Shown in pieces: positions 32,638-54,512 of a DNA stretch of 64,000 nt. Position 1 is the stretch's first letter; each line of letters opens with the position of its first letter. A model generated the notes under the pieces. The model did no database searches. It was not told the origin of the DNA and saw nothing but the letters and a program-made list of their open reading frames with translations. The position numbers and the translations under genes are program-made. Origin of the DNA: Candidatus Obscuribacter phosphatis (lineage in GTDB: Bacteria; Cyanobacteriota; Vampirovibrionia; Obscuribacterales; Obscuribacteraceae); NCBI GenBank assembly GCA_001899315.1, contig MOYA01000001.1:559105-623104 (forward strand). The letters run 5' to 3'.

Positions 32638-33801
32638 CTATAAGCACTTACTTGAGATCGCAAACTCAAGTAAGTCTGGTGAAACATAGTTTCTCAGTGT
32701 CTTATAGCCTACATATCCAGCAGAGAGGCATCTTTGAAGAAAGCTACCTCTTTTTGCTCCAAGGACAATTTCATTGGCGCAGGAAACAAATAGAGAAAGA
32801 TACTTTCTACTTACTCCTTTCGCCAGATCCATTGTGATTCTCATGAAGATTTTCGCGGCGTCTTGGATGTCTTCGAGACCATTTAACGCTTCTCCAGAGT
32901 GGTTATTCATGCGGTGAAATTCTTTTGGATTGAAGTTCTCCTTTTCAGTTTTGACTAATTTAGAGTTCCTTGCAGCGGGAAGTTGGAATTTGCCTCCCTG
33001 CAGAGGCTCAAGAAGACCGTCGAATTCAAGATCCGTTATCGCAACCAAGATCTCTTTGCTATTTCGCTTTGATTTACCCAAAATCTCATCGAGAGTCATG
33101 GGTCCATTTGCTAGTCTTTTGAGTATGTATTCCTCGCTTGTCGAGGTCTTTCTCTGAATGGCAGAGTCGCTTTTGTCACTTTTCGGTTTTCCTTCTTTGG
33201 CAGTCTTTCTTCGTTGCTCCGTCTCATTTTCTTTTGGATAAGGTTCATTAGTTTTCTCCTCGCAATCTGCTACCTCGTCAACTGGTTTCTTTAGCGCTGG
33301 AGTGAGAATCGATCTTTTGGAAAAAAATAGCCGAAATCTAAATGTCTCAAGCGCAATTGCAGAGCTTTCGAACCTTTCTTTTTCTAGAATTAGCAAAGTC
33401 GACTTTATTATCTGTAGCGCAGAGGACTGTGCCACTCCAACTGCTTCGCCAAGCCATTTTGAACTGACGTAGAAGCTGTTTTCTATGATCCAAATAGCCA
33501 ACAACCAGGCTCTTACTTTTTTGACGCCATGAAATATGGTTCCGGCTGTAACCTGTCTTTTCTTTCTGCAAGAGTTACAAACCAGCTTTCGACCCGACTG
33601 AACTTCAGTTTCATCAGAGTTACACCTGCTACAGCGAAGATGACCAGCGATGCGCATTTCTGAAAAGATGAAAGTCCAACAGCTGGGCTCATCAGGGAAT
33701 GTGGAATTGAATTCTTGCAGTAATTTGCTTCTTTGCTGGCAATAGATTGAAGAGGTGAATTCTTCAAGTCGTTCTTTATGAGTTCTTTCTGCCACTTTCA
33801 T
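32638..33801 (-). CDS. IS1595-like transposase derivative with winged helix in place of the DDE core
   Basis: A 387-residue mosaic. Residues 40-140 are the IS1595/ISXO2-type N-terminus: zinc ribbon (CSRCNSDETEVQSGRKLVC, then NSCRKKRQVTAGTIFHGVKK) and the helical region RAWLLAIWIIENSFYVSSKW. Then comes a charged linker, followed at about 225-280 by a DprA-type winged helix (EYILKRLANGPMTLDEILGK, then LEFDGLLEPLQGGKFQL) where the DDE nuclease would lie. The end (GVSRKYLSLFVSCANEI) resembles the transposase C-terminus. No DDE triad is visible, so it should bind DNA but not transpose. No terminal inverted repeats or target duplication were seen. Confidence 0.85.
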   Translation of the reverse strand: MKVAERTHKERLEEFTSSIYCQQRSKLLQEFNSTFPDEPSCWTFIFSEMRIAGHLRCSRCNSDETEVQSGRKLVCNSCRKKRQVTAGTIFHGVKKVRAWLLAIWIIENSFYVSSKWLGEAVGVAQSSALQIIKSTLLILEKERFESSAIALETFRFRLFFSKRSILTPALKKPVDEVADCEEKTNEPYPKENETEQRRKTAKEGKPKSDKSDSAIQRKTSTSEEYILKRLANGPMTLDEILGKSKRNSKEILVAITDLEFDGLLEPLQGGKFQLPAARNSKLVKTEKENFNPKEFHRMNNHSGEALNGLEDIQDAAKIFMRITMDLAKGVSRKYLSLFVSCANEIVLGAKRGSFLQRCLSAGYVGYKTLRNYVSPDLLEFAISSKCL

Positions 33802-33901
33802 AGAAATCTGCCTCTTAGAGGTGTCTATTTACTTAGACGTAATTTCTTATGAAAAAGTTCAATTCAATTGCCAAAAAAATTTGCGGTTTAATCTCCGATT
33901 G

Positions 33902-33950
33902 AAAATTTGCCGATATCGGTTCGATTACGATCTTGAAATCGGCAAATTTT
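33902..33950 (-). terminator. Intrinsic terminator, 13-bp perfect stem
   Basis: AAAATTTGCCGAT (33902-33914) pairs perfectly with ATCGGCAAATTTT (33938-33950) around a 23-base loop. A/T-rich flanks on both sides give a T-run in either direction. It lies 87 bases past the stop of the minus-strand gene at 34037 and upstream of the transposase-like gene. Confidence 0.75.
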
Positions 33951-34036
33951 TTGCTGCAAACTGTCGCTGGCGGCTATTATGGCTCAGCGCCTGCATCTTT
34001 CTTGTCAAGCCTGTGATTCCTAATTCTCGCTAACAC

Positions 34037-34996
34037 CTAAACTTCTAGCGGAGGCTTAACTGGTTCTCTCGGCGTAGCCATTATCTTGGAAACATTAGCT
34101 TTCCAAACTTCTTCACCTTCCTGCTTTACTCTAAACGATTCCCCAATTCTGCCCGATTGTTGCAATGCTTGGGCGTAGACAAGACGACTTGCGGATTGTT
34201 CCATCGCCGCCTTAAGCAGGGGCTCTTGAGCCTTTGTCAGGCTCTCCTCTGCGCTCTTGCGGCGCTCTTGAAGTTTTGCTGCTGAGTCAGCAAGTGACAA
34301 AAGTTGCGGCTGATCTGCTAGCTTTTCCCGAAGACTAGATTTCGTTTTATCATCTATCTTTTCATCGGCTAGCAAGGTCATAACTGCCATCGCTCTTGCT
34401 CTGTCTTCTGGCGGCATTTGCCTGAGAATTTCGCCAGCTTGTGCGGTCGCCCCCATTAGTTGGGAATTGATCATGCCCAGATCTCGTCTGGCGACTAAAA
34501 CATTCGACCAGTTTTCACCCATTGATTTGCCGAAATCTTTGTCTGATTGATTGATCGCTCCCTCGAAACGGGGTTGCAGCTTTTGCATAGCCTGTTCTTT
34601 ATCAGAATTGGACAGAAATGCTTCAGCTGCAGCTCTTGTCTCCTTCAGTCCCAGTCCGAGTTTATCGGGCGGAACTGAAATAATTCCCTGCAGAATATTC
34701 TTGTCTTTCGGTTCGGGTTGAGCGTCTGATCCCTTTTGTTGAATGAGATCAACTTTTGCTTCTATCTGAGTAGCGTTACCTTCGCCCTCTTTTGGCTTGT
34801 CTTTAAAATGGTCTGGTCTATTTGACATTAGGTCGTTCACCCAAGTCAAATTACTCTCTTTCGTTACCGCAGGAGATTCGGCTTTTTCCCACATCTTGCC
34901 TTCCGCCTTATTTTCAATATGAGTGTTGTCAATATTGCTGCTTGCCGAATTATTATTTGGGGACGGCGAAAATGCTATGGTGAAATTCCCATTCAA
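34037..34996 (-). CDS. Hypothetical helical protein
   Basis: A 319-residue protein of unknown function, without signal peptide or membrane segment. The N-terminal 100 residues are polar and probably disordered; residues 110-300 are helical and rich in Ala/Glu/Lys/Gln (MPPEDRARAMAVMTLLADEK, then SAAKLQERRKSAEESLTKAQ). The extended frame begins with TTG at 34996, directly against a terminator hairpin. The in-frame ATG at 34894 (MWEKAESP) has GGAAGG a few bases upstream and may be the true start, giving 285 residues. It ends upstream of a strong terminator and seems monocistronic. Confidence 0.7.
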   Translation of the reverse strand: MNGNFTIAFSPSPNNNSASSNIDNTHIENKAEGKMWEKAESPAVTKESNLTWVNDLMSNRPDHFKDKPKEGEGNATQIEAKVDLIQQKGSDAQPEPKDKNILQGIISVPPDKLGLGLKETRAAAEAFLSNSDKEQAMQKLQPRFEGAINQSDKDFGKSMGENWSNVLVARRDLGMINSQLMGATAQAGEILRQMPPEDRARAMAVMTLLADEKIDDKTKSSLREKLADQPQLLSLADSAAKLQERRKSAEESLTKAQEPLLKAAMEQSASRLVYAQALQQSGRIGESFRVKQEGEEVWKANVSKIMATPREPVKPPLEV

Positions 34997-39557: not shown

Positions 39558-40637
39558 TCAGGCTCTGGGGTGAGTGTTCATATAAACACGCCGCAATCTT
39601 TCCAGGCTTACATGGGTGTAAATCTGGGTGGTATTGATGGTTGTGTGTCCCAGCAAATCTTGCACCACTCTCAGGTCGGCGCCGCCTTCCAAAAGGTGGG
39701 TGGCAAAGGTGTGCCTGAGTGTATGGGGCGTGATTGTTTTGTTGATGCCGGCTTTCAGGGCGTGCTTCATAACAATTCTGTGCACCGAGCGGGACGACAA
39801 TCTGGTCGCTTGCCTGCTCACAAAGAGGGGCAGTTCGGCTTGGGGCAGTCTGCCTTCGGCAAGTTTGGACCAATATTCGTTGAGATATTTTTTCAGCCAG
39901 CCTTGGGCGCTCTGGTTGAGCAGTACAACTCTTTCCTTACCGCCTTTGCCCAGCACACGCATTTCCATGGCTTCTTGATTGTAATCTTGCACTCTCAGTC
40001 CGCAAAGTTCACTGACCCGCATACCGGTTGCATAGAGAACTTCCATCAAGGCCCGGTCTCTGACACCAAGTATGGTGTTGGTATCGGGGGTCATAAGCAG
40101 TCTCACTACTTCTTCTTTATCGAGGCAAGCAGGCAGTCTTCTCGTTAGCTTAGGACCACGCACCTGTTTAGAAGGGTCTTCTTCAATCAATTGTTCTCTG
40201 CGCAAGTAGCGATAGAAACTTCTGATCGCCGAAATTTTTCTTGCCACAGTCGGTCTTGAATACTGCTCTTGAATTTGTCTGATGTAGGCTCTCAGTCCCT
40301 CGGCTTCCAGCCAGCCACTACCTGGGGTCATAGTGGTACCGCTTACCGACTGCTCTGTGGTCGGCATATTCTGAGGCGGAACACCTTCTATAGTGGCGCT
40401 TTGATTTTCGTTGGGCAGATCGCAACCGATCAGCTGTCGCAGATCATTCATATAAGCCCGAATTGTGTGTGATGAATAGTTTCGCTCTACCTCAAGGTAG
40501 CCTGCGAACTGGTCCAGCCAGATCTGATGACTGTTTGATGCGCCACTATTGATGGCGCCACTCATAGAACCACTTATAGTTCCGTGGGTGGTTTCATTCA
40601 TAGTTCCATCGATTGCGTTGTGCGATTGCGAATTCAC
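39558..40637 (-). CDS. Xer-type tyrosine recombinase
   Basis: A 359-residue tyrosine recombinase. The SAM-like core-binding domain (QFAGYLEVERNYSSHTIRAY) is followed by a catalytic domain with Arg in YATGMRVSELCGL, Lys in LGKGGKERVV, HTLRHTFATHLLEGG, and His/Tyr in LLGHTTINTTQIYTHV. The set RKHRHY is intact. It resembles chromosomal XerC/XerD and probably resolves chromosome dimers. It is longer than the usual 300 residues because of a polar N-terminus (about 33 residues) and a polar insertion of about 35 residues inside the core-binding domain (ENQSATIEGVPPQNMPTTEQ). No phage or integron context surrounds it, so a housekeeping role is most likely. Confidence 0.93.
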   Translation of the reverse strand: MNSQSHNAIDGTMNETTHGTISGSMSGAINSGASNSHQIWLDQFAGYLEVERNYSSHTIRAYMNDLRQLIGCDLPNENQSATIEGVPPQNMPTTEQSVSGTTMTPGSGWLEAEGLRAYIRQIQEQYSRPTVARKISAIRSFYRYLRREQLIEEDPSKQVRGPKLTRRLPACLDKEEVVRLLMTPDTNTILGVRDRALMEVLYATGMRVSELCGLRVQDYNQEAMEMRVLGKGGKERVVLLNQSAQGWLKKYLNEYWSKLAEGRLPQAELPLFVSRQATRLSSRSVHRIVMKHALKAGINKTITPHTLRHTFATHLLEGGADLRVVQDLLGHTTINTTQIYTHVSLERLRRVYMNTHPRA

Positions 40638-40908: not shown

Positions 40909-41004
40909 CGGGGATGCGTGGGAATCGAACCCACCCGGGACTGGATCAGCCAGCCCCACAACGGTTTTGAAGACCGTGCACCACACCAGCAGTGCTCCAT
41001 CCCC
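40909..41004 (-). tRNA. selC: tRNA-Sec(UCA), selenocysteine tRNA
   Basis: Read on the minus strand, this 96-base gene has the features of bacterial tRNA-Sec. The anticodon arm ACGGT-CTTCAAA-ACCGT gives anticodon TCA, reading UGA. The acceptor GGGGATG/CATCCCC has seven clear pairs; the eighth position, usually paired in tRNA-Sec, is a G-G mismatch. The T arm is GTGGG-TTCGATT-CCCAC. The long variable arm (GTGGGGCTGG to CCAGTCCCGG region) and extended D arm fit the class, and the discriminator is G. No CCA is encoded. It implies that SelA, SelB and SelD exist elsewhere in the genome; none is in this window. It lies upstream of rpoB on the opposite strand. Confidence 0.95.
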
Positions 41005-41546: not shown

Positions 41547-45041
<3,495 letters not shown>

Positions 45042-45118: not shown

Positions 45119-46918
45119 ATGCCTACAAGTATTGACCGATTTGACTACATCAAAATTGGAATCGCGTCACCGGAGCGTATTCTCAGTTGGTCTCACGGCG
45201 AAGTAACCAAGCCCGAGACAATCAACTATAGAACGCTCAAACCGGAGAAAGACGGACTTTTCTGCGAGCGCATCTTTGGACCTTCTAAGGACTGGGAATG
45301 CTATTGCGGTAAGTACAAGCGCGTTCGTCACCGCGGTATCACTTGCGAACGCTGCGGCGTCGAAGTGACCGATTCAAAAGTACGCCGTCACAGAATGGGT
45401 CATATCAAACTGGCTTCGCCGGTAACCCATATCTGGTTCCTCAAGGGCATCCCGAGCTATATTGGTCTTTTGCTCGACCTGCCCTTGCGTGATTTGGAAC
45501 AGGTTGTCTATTTCAACGCTTATGTCGTAACCAACGCCGGTAACGCGCCTGATTTGCATAAAAATCAGTTGCTCGCCGAAGACGAGTACGAAAAGCTTCT
45601 CGAAGATCCCAACCTGCAGTTCGACGTCGGTATCGGTGCCGAAGCCATCAAGCAACTCTTGCACGATTTGGCCAAGCCCGTCTACGAGCGTCCGGACAAC
45701 AAAGACGACCGTGGTCGCCTCATTGAACTGCCCGGTTTGAGAGAAATCTCGGTTGCTCTCCGTGAAGAACTCGCCGGCTCCGGTGGTTCACAGCAGAAGC
45801 GGGCCAAGATCATCAAGAGACTGAGACTGGTGGAAGCTCTGCTTTCATCACATACCGACCCCACCTGGGTCATTCTCGATAATCTCCCGGTCACCCCGCC
45901 CGACCTGCGCCCCATGGTGCAGCTCGATGGTGGACGCTTCGCCACTTCCGACTTGAACGATCTCTATCGTCGCGTGATCAACAGAAACAATCGTCTGGCC
46001 AGGTTGCTCGAAATGGGCGCTCCTGAAATCATCGTCAGAAACGAAAAGCGTATGTTGCAAGAAGCTGTCGATGCTCTCATCGACAACGGCAGAAGAGGTC
46101 GTGTGGTGGTCGGTCCCAACAACCGTCCGCTCAAATCGCTCTCCAACATCATCGAAGGTAAGCAAGGTCGTTTCCGTCAGAACCTGCTCGGTAAGCGCGT
46201 CGACTACTCAGGTCGTTCGGTTATCGTGGTTGGTCCGACACTCAAACTGCACCAGTGCGGTTTGCCCAGAGAAATGGCTCTTGAACTCTTCAAGCCCTTC
46301 GTGATCAATAAGCTCATCGAGCGCCAGATTGTTCAGAACATCAAATCAGCCAAGAAACAAATCGAGAAAGGCTCAGCCATCGTCTGGGAAATTCTGGAAG
46401 AAGTCATTCAAGGCCACCCGGTACTCCTGAACCGCGCCCCTACGCTCCACCGACTCGGTATTCAGGCTTTCGAGCCGGTACTGGTGGAAGGTCGCGCTAT
46501 CCAACTGCACCCACTTGTTTGCTCAGCCTTCAACGCTGACTTCGACGGTGACCAGATGGCCGTTCACGTACCTCTATCGGTAGAAGCTCAGGCTGAAGCC
46601 CACATGCTCATGTTGGCTTCCAACAACACCCTGCTTCCCGCCACTGGACGCCCCACCATCACTCCTACCCAGGACATGGTGCTCGGCATCTATTACTTGA
46701 CCATCGAAAAACCGGGCAACGACGATCCTTCCATCTGTCGCGGTGCCGGTATGCGTTTCGTTAGCCTCGCCGATGCTCGCTCAGCTTTTGAAGCCGGCAT
46801 TCTCGATCTGCACGCCAAAATCAAAGTTCGTGACTTTGACGGTCAGATGATTGAGACCACTCCTGGTCGCATCATCTTCAACCAGGTCGTGCGCGAAGCG
46901 ATCGCTACGGTCAACTAA
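45119..46918 (+). CDS. rpoC1: RNA polymerase gamma subunit (N-terminal half of beta')
   Basis: A 599-residue protein equal to the N-terminal half of bacterial beta', as in Cyanobacteria where it is called gamma. The zinc site is [20 protein letters not shown]. The catalytic magnesium motif [12 protein letters not shown] is intact, so this subunit holds the active-site aspartates. [18 protein letters not shown] and [16 protein letters not shown] are present. It ends with a true stop and is followed after 53 bases by rpoC2, which continues the beta' sequence; rpoC is thus split rather than frameshifted. The ATG is preceded by GGAGG at about 12 bases and AGG at five. Confidence 0.98.
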
Positions 46919-46971: not shown

Positions 46972-49900
46972 ATGGTCACAGGCGATAAGAAAGAAACAAT
47001 TGAATTCATCAACACCACAGTTGATAAAAAGAAGCTAGGTGCGCTTCTTTCCGATGTATACGAGCGCTTTGGTACAGCCCGCACAGCTGAGCTGGCCAAC
47101 GCTCTTAAAAACCTCGGTTTTAAATATGCCACCAAGGCCGGCGTCACAATCTCTATTGACGACTTAGATGTACCCGAAGCCAAAAAGGGTCTCATCTCAG
47201 CCGCCGAGAAAGAAATCGAAGCCGCTCAGAAGCGTTATGAACGCGGTGATATCACCGAAGTTGAACGCTACAACAAAGTAATCGATACCTGGTCTGCTAC
47301 AACCGACCAGCTCACAAAAGAAGTAGTCGATAACTTCGATAGACTGAACCCGGTTTACATGATGGCGTTCTCCGGCGCTAGAGGTAACATCTCTCAGGTT
47401 CGTCAGCTTGTCGGTATGAGGGGCTTGATGGCTGACTCTCAAGGTCAGATTATCGACTTGCCCATCAAAGCCAACTTCCGTGAAGGTCTGAACGTTACCG
47501 AGTACATTATCTCCAGCTACGGCGCCAGAAAAGGTCTCGTAGATACAGCGCTCAAGACAGCCGACTCTGGTTATCTGACCAGACGTCTCGTCGACGTTGC
47601 TCAGGACGTAATCGTGCGTGAGCCCGACTGCGGCACCAAGCGTGGTATTGCCATGCAGCCGATCTCGGAAGGCGACAAAGACATGGTCAAGCTTGCTGAG
47701 CGTATCTACGGTCGCACACTGGCTGAAGATGTAGTCGATCCTGAAACTGGTGAAGTAATCGCCAGACTGGGCGAACTTGTCACCCGTAAGCTCTCCACCA
47801 CTATCGACGGCGCACTCAAGAAGCCCAAGAAAGTGAAGGTAAGGTCACCGCTCACTTGCGAAAGCCAGTACGGTGTCTGCCAGAAGTGCTACGGCTGGTC
47901 TCTCACCAACAACAGATTGGTCGATCAGGGTGAAGCAATCGGTATCATCGCTGCTCAGTCAATCGGTGAACCTGGTACACAGCTGACCATGAGAACATTC
48001 CACACCGGTGGTGCGGTCTCAGGCGGCAGCAGCCGTAACCAGGTTAAATCTCCCGCTAAGGGCACAGTCTCCTTCAAGCTGCAGAGCCGTTCCATTCGTA
48101 CCGCTTATGGCGATGTTATGGAACAGACCACCAGAGATGGTGTCATGAAAGTAGTTGCCGGAGAGAAAGAACATTCGGTCAATATCCCTATTGGTTCTTT
48201 CTTGCACGTCAGCAGCGGCGCCGAAGTGACAGCCGGACAGGTGCTCTGTGAGTACGATCCGCCGGGTCAGAAAAAGAACTTGACTGAGCGCGCCACCAAA
48301 GATATCACTGCCGATATCTCCGGTCGTATCATGTTCCAAGGCTTCCAAGCCGACGAAAAACGCGACCGTCAGGGCAACATCTCTAGAACAGCCAACCGCG
48401 CCGGTATCATCTGGGTACTGGAAGGCGACGTTTACAACTTGCCTTCGGGCGCCCATGTGGTCGTCAAAGACGGTCAAGAAGTGAACGCTCTCGATGTTCT
48501 AGCCGAAATTCAAATCACTTCCGAGCATGGTGGTGAAGTGAGATTTGGTCCTGAAATCGAGACCGAAGTGGTAAAAGTTGGTCGCAGCAAAACCCAAACC
48601 AGATTGGTCAAGGGTAAAGAAATCAACGTCATCATCGCCTCGGTCGGTGCAAGCAACGCCAAGCTCGAACCCGGTCAGAAAGGTCATGTTTGGAAAGTAG
48701 CCAAACAGAAAGAATCTTTCGCCATCAAAGTGGTAAACGATGAAGTGGTCGAGAACGGCAAAATCATCGCTGAGCTTGTTGACGATGGTACAAACGTAGT
48801 CAGCTGCGGCGGCGAGATCATCTATGATGGCGTCGAAATCGACGACAGAAGAGTTGTCACCAAGGCCGGTAAAGTGCTCTTCGTTCCCGAAGAAGTACAC
48901 TTTATCTCGAAAGACAGCTCGCTCAAGATGTCTGAAACCGGCGAAACAGTAACAGCCGGTCAAGAAGTGGTCAAAGATGTATTTGCCCATATGGAAGGTG
49001 TTATCGAGATCATCGCTGATAACGACATCATCCACGAAGTAATCATCAGACCCGGCGAACTGGTGCCGATCAACGATCCTTCCGACCTGCGCGTTCCCGA
49101 AGGTCAGATTGTCGAGCCCGGTACCGAGATTATCGATGGTCTTACCTATAAAGAGCGCAAGCTGGTAAGTTTCTTCGAGAAAGAAGACGGTTCCTGCTAT
49201 GCCCTGGTTAGACCGGTGGAAGAGTATTGGATCGAGCCCAGAGAGACCAAGTTCAAGCACAGAGCAACCGACGAGAAAATCTCGCTCCGCTCCGTCACCC
49301 AGTTGCTTTTCCGCGATCGCGAAAAAGTGCGTAACCTGCAAGGCGCCCAGCTGACCAGAACCTCACTGGTTCTGCAGATGCAAGGTCACCTGCAAGGTCT
49401 CAAGGGTATTGTCGAAATGGGCGAAGAGTTGCTCATTGTCGTCCAAGAGAACATTCTCTTGCGCCGTGAGCAAGACCTCAACGTCACCCTGCTCGCCGTC
49501 GAACATGGTCAGGTAATCGAAGCGAAAGAGCCGGTAGCCACCACCCAGGTGCTCACCCGCACTTCCGCCCGCGTACAGCTGTCCAAGAACGACGAGCGCC
49601 GTATTCTTCTAATCACCGAAGAACAGCAGACACATCAGAAAATCAAAGGCACTGCCTCCGTCAAAGACGGTGATTTGATCCGTCTCGGCGATAACCTATC
49701 CAAGTCTTCCACAGCCGGAGTCTCCGGTCAGGTCGTCTCGGTGGACGGTGCCGATGTCGTGATCAGAAAAGGCAGACCTTATCTGATCTCGGTCAACACC
49801 CAATTGCAGTCTGAAGACGGCGCCCTGGTGCAAAGAGGCGACTTGCTCGCTACTCTCATCTTCGAAAGACAGAAAACCGGGGACATCGTTCAGGGTCTTC

Positions 49901-50658
49901 CTCGTGTAGAAGAGCTTCTTGAAGCCAGAAAGCCGAAAGAGAACGCCATTCTCGCTGAGAAAGAAGGACGCGCCCGCATCCTTACCGAAGACGACGTAAC
50001 CAGGCTCTTCTTGGTCTTCGGCGACGGTACCGAAGAAGAAGTGGTGATTCCTCAGGGTCTCAACGTTATCGTTGAAGACGCTGAACAAATCACCCTCGGC
50101 ACCGCCCTCACCGACGGACCGCCCAACCCTCACGACATTGTCAGACTGCGCGGCATCGCTGCTGCTCAGAAATATCTGGTCGATGAAGTGCAGTCCGTTT
50201 ACCGCTCTCAGGGTGTAGACATCGCCGACAAACACATCGAAGTGATTGTTCGTCAGATGACCCGTAAAGTGCGCGTAGATGAACCGAAGGACACCATCTT
50301 GCTCCCCGGTGAGCTGATGGAGCGTTACATCATCGATCAAGAAAATGACAAGATGGGTCAGCAAGGTCTCGAGGGTGCCACCTACACCGACGTACTGCTC
50401 GGTATCACCAAGGCTTCACTCAATACCGAGAGCTTCATCTCAGCCGCTTCCTTCCAGGAAACCACAAGAATCCTCACCGAAGCTGCTGTTGAAGGTAAGA
50501 AAGACTGGCTGCGCGGTCTCAAAGAGAACGTCATCATCGGTCGTCTTATTCCTGCCGGTACTGGCTTCCAGGGTCATTCACAGCCCCAGGAAGAAGAGGA
50601 AGAAGAGGAAGATATCTATCCGCCCATCGGTGAAGGCAGCTTCAACGTTCCGGCCTGA
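46972..50658 (+). CDS. rpoC2: RNA polymerase beta' subunit, C-terminal half (split rpoC)
   Basis: A 1228-residue protein equal to the C-terminal half of beta'. Key blocks: [20 protein letters not shown], the bridge/trigger sequence [16 protein letters not shown], and the zinc knuckle [11 protein letters not shown]. After the trigger-loop block lies a long insertion (about residues 350-800), rich in beta strands and repeated KDGQEV/TAGQ-type turns, comparable to the cyanobacterial SI3 sandwich-barrel insertion but shorter than in most cyanobacteria. The C-terminal parts ([40 protein letters not shown]) are conserved. GAGGGACAA precedes the ATG. The operon ends in a strong terminator. Confidence 0.98.
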   Translation: [1228 protein letters not shown]

Positions 50659-53402: not shown

Positions 53403-54512
53403 ATGTATCAATTTAGATTTCCCAAACGGCTATTAGCTTTAGCTATGCTGGCCGCCTGCACCTTAACCTTGCCGGCCCAAGCTGGTCCCAAGCTTATAAC
53501 CGGCACCGAACAGTGGGAGAATGTCAATTATCTATTGACCGAGATTCCCTGGTATCAGAGTCTTTCGCAGGCCCAAGAAGCGGCTCGCCAGAAAGGCAAG
53601 ATGGTCTTTTATATGCACATATTGGGCAAACTGAACGGGGCCACTTGAAGCGCCGGAAATAGTTTGAGAGCCGTGTCGCTCTCTTCGCCTCAAGTAGTAA
53701 GTGTTCTCAAAGATAATTTTGAATGTGCCACCCGAGATATAACTGGGTCGGAGTATTCGGGTGTTTCCGGCAAGCATGAAGTGACCGGCAAGGCGGTTCG
53801 CACTACAAACGGTGCCGGCCCGCACAATATTCAGATGTTCATGCTGGCCTCAGACGGCACTGTATTGCATTGCCTGCCGGGCTATTGGGCTCCTGCCGAT
53901 TTAGTCCATGAAGTAGATCTGGCTAAAAAGCTCAATACCGTGTGGACAAGCAATATGAGCTATGACCAGAAACGCCGTGAGTTCTACCGGCTGCATTTAG
54001 CTCATGCCTATGCCCATTCAGACGCCACCAAGATGCGCAGCAAAATGCAGGGTTTCGACCAGAAATACGAGGCAAAGCATAGACTTTCCACCTCGGATAC
54101 AATCTTGAACCCCACCCTGGCTGCGCAGATACTTGAGCCGGGTGGCAAGGCTCCCCCTGGAGCCTTCAAGACCACTGACCTAATCATGCATGAAAGAATG
54201 GCAGTACGTCCTTTCCTTCCCTATAATCAGTTCGATGTTGCGGCATACAGCGATTATGGCCGCCCGCTTTATGACAAGAACGAAGACTATCGCACTGCTT
54301 CGGGTGAAGTCGATAAAGATGCCGCCAAGCATGCGCCGCGCATAGGTAATGTCGATGCCATGAAGCAAGCAAAGATGAAAGGCGGCGGCGTTTCTAACGC
54401 TTCCGGTTCCGGCTCCGGCTCCGGCTCGGGCTCTTCTCGTATGGCATCTTATTTGACTAGACGTGGGGTTCGCACCTTTACCCGCATGGGGGTAAGAGCC
54501 CTCACCAACTAA
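53403..54512 (+). CDS. Probable thioredoxin-like selenoprotein (in-frame UGA read as Sec82)
   Basis: A 369-residue protein if the UGA at 53646-53648 is selenocysteine. The 81-codon 5' part and the 3' part are in one frame with no other stop. The N-terminus has a signal peptide with a lipobox (MLAAC, Cys19), or signal peptidase I could cut after AQA. A thioredoxin-like domain spans the [22 protein letters not shown], then NGATU, then [17 protein letters not shown], then DNFECATRD, ending in [19 protein letters not shown]. Sec aligns with the first Cys of CxxC; the partner is absent, so it would be a single-Sec enzyme. A SECIS-like hairpin follows, and a tRNA-Sec is in this window. GAGGT lies seven bases before the ATG; the C-terminus is Gly/Ser-rich. 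Confidence 0.82.
53666..53683 (+). promoter_or_regulatory. Candidate bacterial SECIS hairpin
   Basis: GAGAGC (53666-53671) pairs perfectly with GCTCTC (53678-53683) around the six-base loop CGTGTC. There are 23 bases between the UGA and the loop, within the 16-37 range of the general bacterial SECIS model, and G is the second loop base as that model requires. It lies inside the coding sequence, as bacterial SECIS elements do, where SelB would bind. Confidence 0.65.

Follow-up and report, generated by a model that had tools for sequence, protein, structure and literature searches.

We analyzed a 64,000-nucleotide stretch (the window) of contig MOYA01000001.1 from Candidatus Obscuribacter phosphatis (genome G000; 5.5 Mb in 8 contigs, 95% complete), an uncultured member of the order Obscuribacterales in the phylum Cyanobacteriota. 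The window carries a gene for the tRNA of selenocysteine (Sec), the rare 21st amino acid, named tRNA-Sec or selC, and, 12 kb from it, a reading frame with an internal UGA (53403–54512) that was absent from the preliminary description of this DNA. We conclude with high confidence that the organism has a complete bacterial Sec system and that this frame encodes one of its substrates, a predicted exported protein with a thioredoxin fold.

ARAGORN predicted a single tRNA in the window, a tRNA-Sec with anticodon TCA (40909–41004, minus strand). The Rfam model of tRNA-Sec (RF01852) matched positions 40910–41004 of the same strand over its full length, with 73.7 bits (E-value, 3.2e-13) against a gathering score of 47. 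The preliminary description had recognized a tRNA-Sec next to rpoB from its UCA anticodon, long variable arm and extended D arm. Both programs agree with this assignment, and the sequence itself bears out all three features: the anticodon lies at 40968–40970, the stem of the D arm has 6 bp (CACUGC/GUGGUG) and its loop 4 nucleotides (UGGU), and the variable arm is long. The T stem is GUGGG/CCCAC. The covariance model that it had proposed as a check assigns the gene to the tRNA-Sec class, and rpoB does start nearby (41547) on the opposite strand. The discriminator is G73 (position 40909), and CCA is absent from the gene. In its UCA anticodon, long variable arm, 6/4 D arm, G73 and 13-layer acceptor-T branch the tRNA matches bacterial tRNA-Sec (RF01852); it differs in having a G-G instead of a pair in the eighth acceptor layer. 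We also identified in a relative (G075), which has a normal tRNA-Sec, a second gene with a tRNA-Sec body (G075:C17:124713-124808, L211; 8/5, Rfam 54.9 bits); in it the anticodon is GCA and the discriminator U73, both of them identity features for Cys.

The acceptor contains seven standard pairs followed by G 40997 opposed to G 40917, exactly the arrangement given in the preliminary description. In the 8/5 layout, the acceptor and T branch has 13 layers (12 standard pairs and one G-G). Rfam arranges these bases differently, as eight pairs plus a bulged G, so that either register may apply at this position. Bacterial tRNA-Sec with 12 pairs have been published (PMC5330540). The window tRNA shares the seven standard acceptor pairs of the 7/5-fold type of Cloacimonetes (PMC5330540) but keeps the opposed G-G as an eighth layer in an unshortened branch. 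The departure from the usual eight-pair acceptor is thus real, but a survey of relatives led us to reject its uniqueness. Of the 30 tRNA-Sec read from the order, 25 have G-G in the eighth layer, whereas genus g4 has A-U and family f2 has G-C there; G-G recurs in Planctomycetota, and A-A occurs in Armatimonadota and in other classes of Cyanobacteriota. In these other classes, A-A was seen in the true tRNA-Sec of genomes G252, G256, G262, G268, G270, G280 and G286.

In Escherichia coli, the eighth to tenth acceptor pairs are identity elements for SelB and rejection elements for EF-Tu (PMC9976931). A functional effect of the G-G is possible because it occupies the first of these three positions. 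The mismatch could adapt the tRNA to the lineage's SelB or away from EF-Tu, a proposal that bears on the mismatch alone and does not conflict with Sec insertion. Its presence in all family f1 tRNA-Sec read except those of genus g4 and the recurrence of purine-purine mismatches in Planctomycetota, Armatimonadota and other classes of the phylum speak for such an adaptation. However, close relatives have standard pairs in this layer, family f2 carries the same selenoprotein family with a G-C, and neutral drift is an alternative. We consider the adaptation rather unlikely.

The genome also encodes the Sec machinery, a check that the preliminary description had suggested. Genes for selA (502.1 bits), selB (256.6 bits) and selD (349.3 bits) all scored above their curated cut-offs (267.9, 242.25 and 125, respectively). 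Together with the covariance match, these computed results establish the tRNA and the machinery and support the earlier proposal that the lineage decodes UGA as Sec. After selD lies a YedF-like gene, judged from the start of its translation only. We rejected SelD itself as a selenoprotein, as its frame is open without stops. Among 240 genomes of the class, 40 had a selB gene above the cut-off, and every one of these belongs to Obscuribacterales (families f1 and f2). Because tRNA-Sec is found in 42 of 53 Obscuribacterales genomes and adjoins rpoB in 29 of 30 loci examined, including those of the second family of the order, the Sec trait seems to go back to the ancestor of the order and to have been lost several times. 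A few genomes from other classes of Cyanobacteriota carry true tRNA-Sec as well (67–72 bits). Matches of 48–50 bits in relatives of other families were discarded, as both cases checked were tRNA-Ser. The lineage was already known to use Sec, because selenocysteine in one Candidatus Melainabacteria protein (PWT95605.1) was published in 2022 (PMC9529120). The tRNA-Sec observation is correct and, by itself, ordinary for the lineage.

A scan for UGA codons inside the coding frames of the window pointed to position 53646. Reading through this codon yields a 369-residue product with a signal peptide (by eye), a thioredoxin-fold domain (residues ~44–182) and a C-terminal helical part (residues 187–330). 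A second member of the family (G000:C3:722228-723094, L210), also with a UGA and with a CGUGUC loop in its Sec insertion sequence (SECIS), brings the genome's complement to two. Protein searches of 146 genomes of the class returned 91 strong matches; they come from 40 genomes, every one of them from Obscuribacterales, with up to six copies each. The UGA is in frame in 90 of the 91, and the remaining one has Cys (TGT). We also scanned one genome per GTDB species, using two search patterns, one of them able to catch Cys forms, and found the UGA at the same column in 76/76 loci; this set and the 91 matches share genomes. The loci include Planctomycetota records (54–74% G+C) and Armatimonadota-labelled ones. 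Some labels on single metagenome-assembled genomes among the carriers, such as Proteobacteria or Actinobacteria, are probably wrong. Protein conservation extends to both sides of the UGA in ~100 homologues (down to 37–45% identity), and those with a stop codon at this position never have TAA or TAG.

The family also tracks the Sec machinery. Within the order, 37 genomes have both the family and tRNA-Sec, three the family only, four tRNA-Sec only and eight neither (Fisher P, 8e-5). The three genomes with the family and no tRNA-Sec are 65–83% complete. All 12 additional genomes that carry the family, most of which bear different or odd labels, gave a selA match; one of these matches is truncated at the end of a contig and falls under the cut-off. 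The nine of these genomes that were tested all had tRNA-Sec. The family gene and tRNA-Sec lie on one contig, 12–23 kb apart, in eight genomes. Genomes without Sec machinery also lack the family gene.

The apical loop of a SECIS hairpin begins 23 nucleotides after the UGA. Published limits for bacterial SECIS elements are a loop of 3–9 nucleotides with a G in the first two bases, a stem of 4–16 bp, a spacing of 16–37 nucleotides and an energy of at most -7.5 (PMC13188914). The hairpin of the window gene lies within all of them, with a 6-bp stem, a 6-nucleotide loop beginning CG and an energy of -8.1 alone (-12.2 for a 55-nucleotide stretch). RNAalifold identified no compensatory pair in the SECIS region because variants shift register; hence we used a synonymous-null test instead. 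Divergent members, for example, retain the hairpin in a shifted register (GAGGGA-CGUG-UCCCUC). Among 78 distinct members, the ratio of observed to expected synonymous codon entropy is 0.25 at codons 88–93, compared to a gene median of 0.96. These codons, 6 to 11 past the Sec, are the lowest-entropy stretch of the gene; Ala90 is encoded by GCC in 74/74 and Val91 by GTG in 77/78. Counting hairpins by the published stem, loop and spacing limits and an energy of -4 or below, we found one in 76/76 distinct sequences versus 15% after synonymous randomization. Mean energies were -7.8 observed and -1.6 randomized (standard deviation, 0.27). The published energy limit of -7.5 was reached by 62% of members with the apical hairpin alone, and the window gene alone differed from the synonymous null at P 0.02. 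Both the conservation of the UGA and the constraint after it are shown by computation.

An AlphaFold2 model of the readthrough product (mean confidence score pLDDT 87, core above 95) has a predicted thioredoxin fold, with Sec82 immediately ahead of a helix (residues 83–92) and Gly-Pro140-His just ahead of the next strand, at the predicted cis-proline place. The model comes closest to domains of the DsbD-gamma-like and AGR/ERp18 types (Z 8–11, 12–19% identity), the best match being a DsbD-gamma-like domain (Z 11.0 over 110 residues, 2.5 A); Foldseek E-values were all above 1e-3. The family shares the predicted thioredoxin fold and presumably the exported location of these proteins but differs in having a lone Sec without CxxC, a long extra C-terminal helical part and no significant sequence match to them. 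CxxC, CxxU and UxxC motifs were not found in the family; its motif, G-x-T-U-S-A, lacks a Cys at a distance of three residues. Cys157, conserved in at least 90% of members, is a candidate resolving residue.

It is highly improbable that translation simply ends at UGA 53646, with 53664–54512 a separate gene and the upstream 81 codons a small exported peptide. An open reading frame finder does report 53664–54512 separately, and of the 39 window frames that stay open for 250 codons or more, 9 have UGA as their normal stop. However, the frame runs across an invariant UGA, never TAA or TAG, in ~100 homologues, the predicted thioredoxin fold requires parts on both sides of it, and the synonymous constraint falls exactly where a SECIS is expected. 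Still less credible is that the window tRNA is a tRNA-Ser or a suppressor that reads UGA through its UCA anticodon but plays no part in Sec insertion. Its seven standard acceptor pairs are as in tRNA-Ser, but the 6-bp D stem, 4-nucleotide D loop, G73 and Rfam score argue against this, as do the complete Sec machinery of the genome and the conservation of the tRNA across the order. Reassignment of UGA to Trp or Gly would also explain a conserved gene with an in-frame UGA, but it is practically discounted by the other window genes and family members (L101, L107, L109, L120 and L124) that end in this codon, by the Cys in the sole aligned homologue without UGA and by the full Sec system.

Selenocysteine insertion at the conserved UGA is therefore the reading we retain. 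SerRS would charge tRNA-Sec with serine, which SelA would convert using selenophosphate made by SelD. SelB would then bring the Sec-tRNA to those UGA codons that have a SECIS hairpin downstream. The exported thioredoxin-fold protein would receive Sec at codon 82, the predicted active-site position ahead of the helix. Insertion, export and redox activity of the 53403–54512 product are inferred from these features, and the protein is most likely an envelope selenol oxidoreductase or peroxidase.

Several observations weigh against this reading. One homologue has Cys (TGT) in place of Sec, and the Fisher test of co-occurrence ignores relatedness. Four genomes with tRNA-Sec (G025, G041, G121 and G140) lack the family, and other selenoproteins must therefore exist there. 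When 1.73 Mb (31% of the genome) was scanned ab initio for UGA codons with a SECIS, both family members and one false candidate formed by two abutting genes were recovered, but these three UGA candidates did not separate from the controls (five TAA and two TAG). Hence, the selenoprotein case rests on the comparison between genomes. The Cys homologue (L209; G062:C80, ~33324–34070) has GAHN instead of the GPHN motif, and its genome also has Sec versions.

The family is new within a known kind of protein: large, nearly Cys-free and missed by the family libraries searched. None of 68 members matched Pfam at an E-value of 0.01, NCBIfam gave only fragments far below cut-off for the same members, and the curated cut-offs of Pfam Thioredoxin_7 and of the NCBIfam selenoprotein models were not reached. 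A sequence search of the PDB with the selenoprotein returned nothing significant. The family is invisible to these libraries, and a standard open reading frame finder therefore shows its downstream part only. The VPGUxxT selenoprotein (NF041382/NF041383) is also thioredoxin-like, and one family member matched it below threshold (E-value, 0.15); however, the family lacks the VPGUxxT motif, and the match scores 11 against a cut-off of 350. A 2026 catalogue of 119 prokaryotic selenoprotein families, most of the unnamed ones tied to NCBIfam models, does not contain the family motif, although a groundwater survey cited there might already list the family (PMC13188914). Seven members also have a short, weak match (E-values down to 3e-4) to the model of the selenoneine synthase SenA near the C-terminus (54207–54308 in the window; residues 269–302), an odd match for a selenium protein and probably due to chance.

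Programs that look for selenoproteins use Cys homologues as a filter and, according to their authors, can overlook families that have none (PMC12013277). GrdA, the selenoprotein A of glycine reductase, is a published selenoprotein without Cys homologues (PMC12013277); it is unrelated to the family described here, which has one Cys paralogue among 91 matches. The family comes close to such a missable case while being abundant, paralogous and spread over several phyla. It gives a non-photosynthetic lineage of Cyanobacteriota a concrete selenoprotein and supplies ~100 sequences in which to test why Sec, rather than Cys, is retained. We tentatively raise the possibility, which we judge somewhat less probable than its opposite, that the protein is a near-obligate selenoprotein whose Sec is hardly replaceable by Cys, and that the family is a main reason why Obscuribacterales keep Sec. 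Lineages that lose the machinery would therefore lose the gene rather than convert it. If so, the family, with six copies in some genomes, would help explain Sec retention in the order. Profile searches of the family-less genomes were empty, in a form of search that had no positive control.

The features of the window are collected in the table. We tried formate dehydrogenase as a further selenoprotein and rejected it: homologues are present in 41 of 53 genomes, none above the curated cut-off, and among the matches listed none has an in-frame stop. No general operon partner was seen across relatives within 6 kb of the selenoprotein gene.

Table. Features of the 64-kb window, with the Sec-related elements first.
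Feature	Coordinates	Strand	Evidence
tRNA-Sec gene (selC)	40909..41004	-	ARAGORN and Rfam
Predicted selenoprotein gene, 369 aa, Sec at residue 82, stop TAA	53403..54512	+	UGA scan, homologues, fold model
In-frame UGA (Sec82), predicted active-site position of thioredoxin fold	53646..53648	+	conserved UGA, model
SECIS hairpin GAGAGC-CGUGUC-GCUCUC	53666..53683	+	folding, synonymous-null test
Xer-like tyrosine recombinase beside tRNA-Sec	39558..40637	-	Pfam; locus comparison
rpoB, conserved tRNA-Sec neighbour	41547..45041	+	Pfam; locus comparison
rpoC1 (split rpoC, first part)	45119..46918	+	Pfam
rpoC2 (split rpoC, second part)	46972..50658	+	Pfam

Downstream of rpoB, rpoC is divided into two genes, as in Cyanobacteriota. 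On the other side of tRNA-Sec, the tyrosine recombinase was considered as a sign of a mobile element. We rejected this possibility, as the protein resembles a chromosomal Xer protein and is kept in place beside tRNA-Sec in 23 of 30 relatives.
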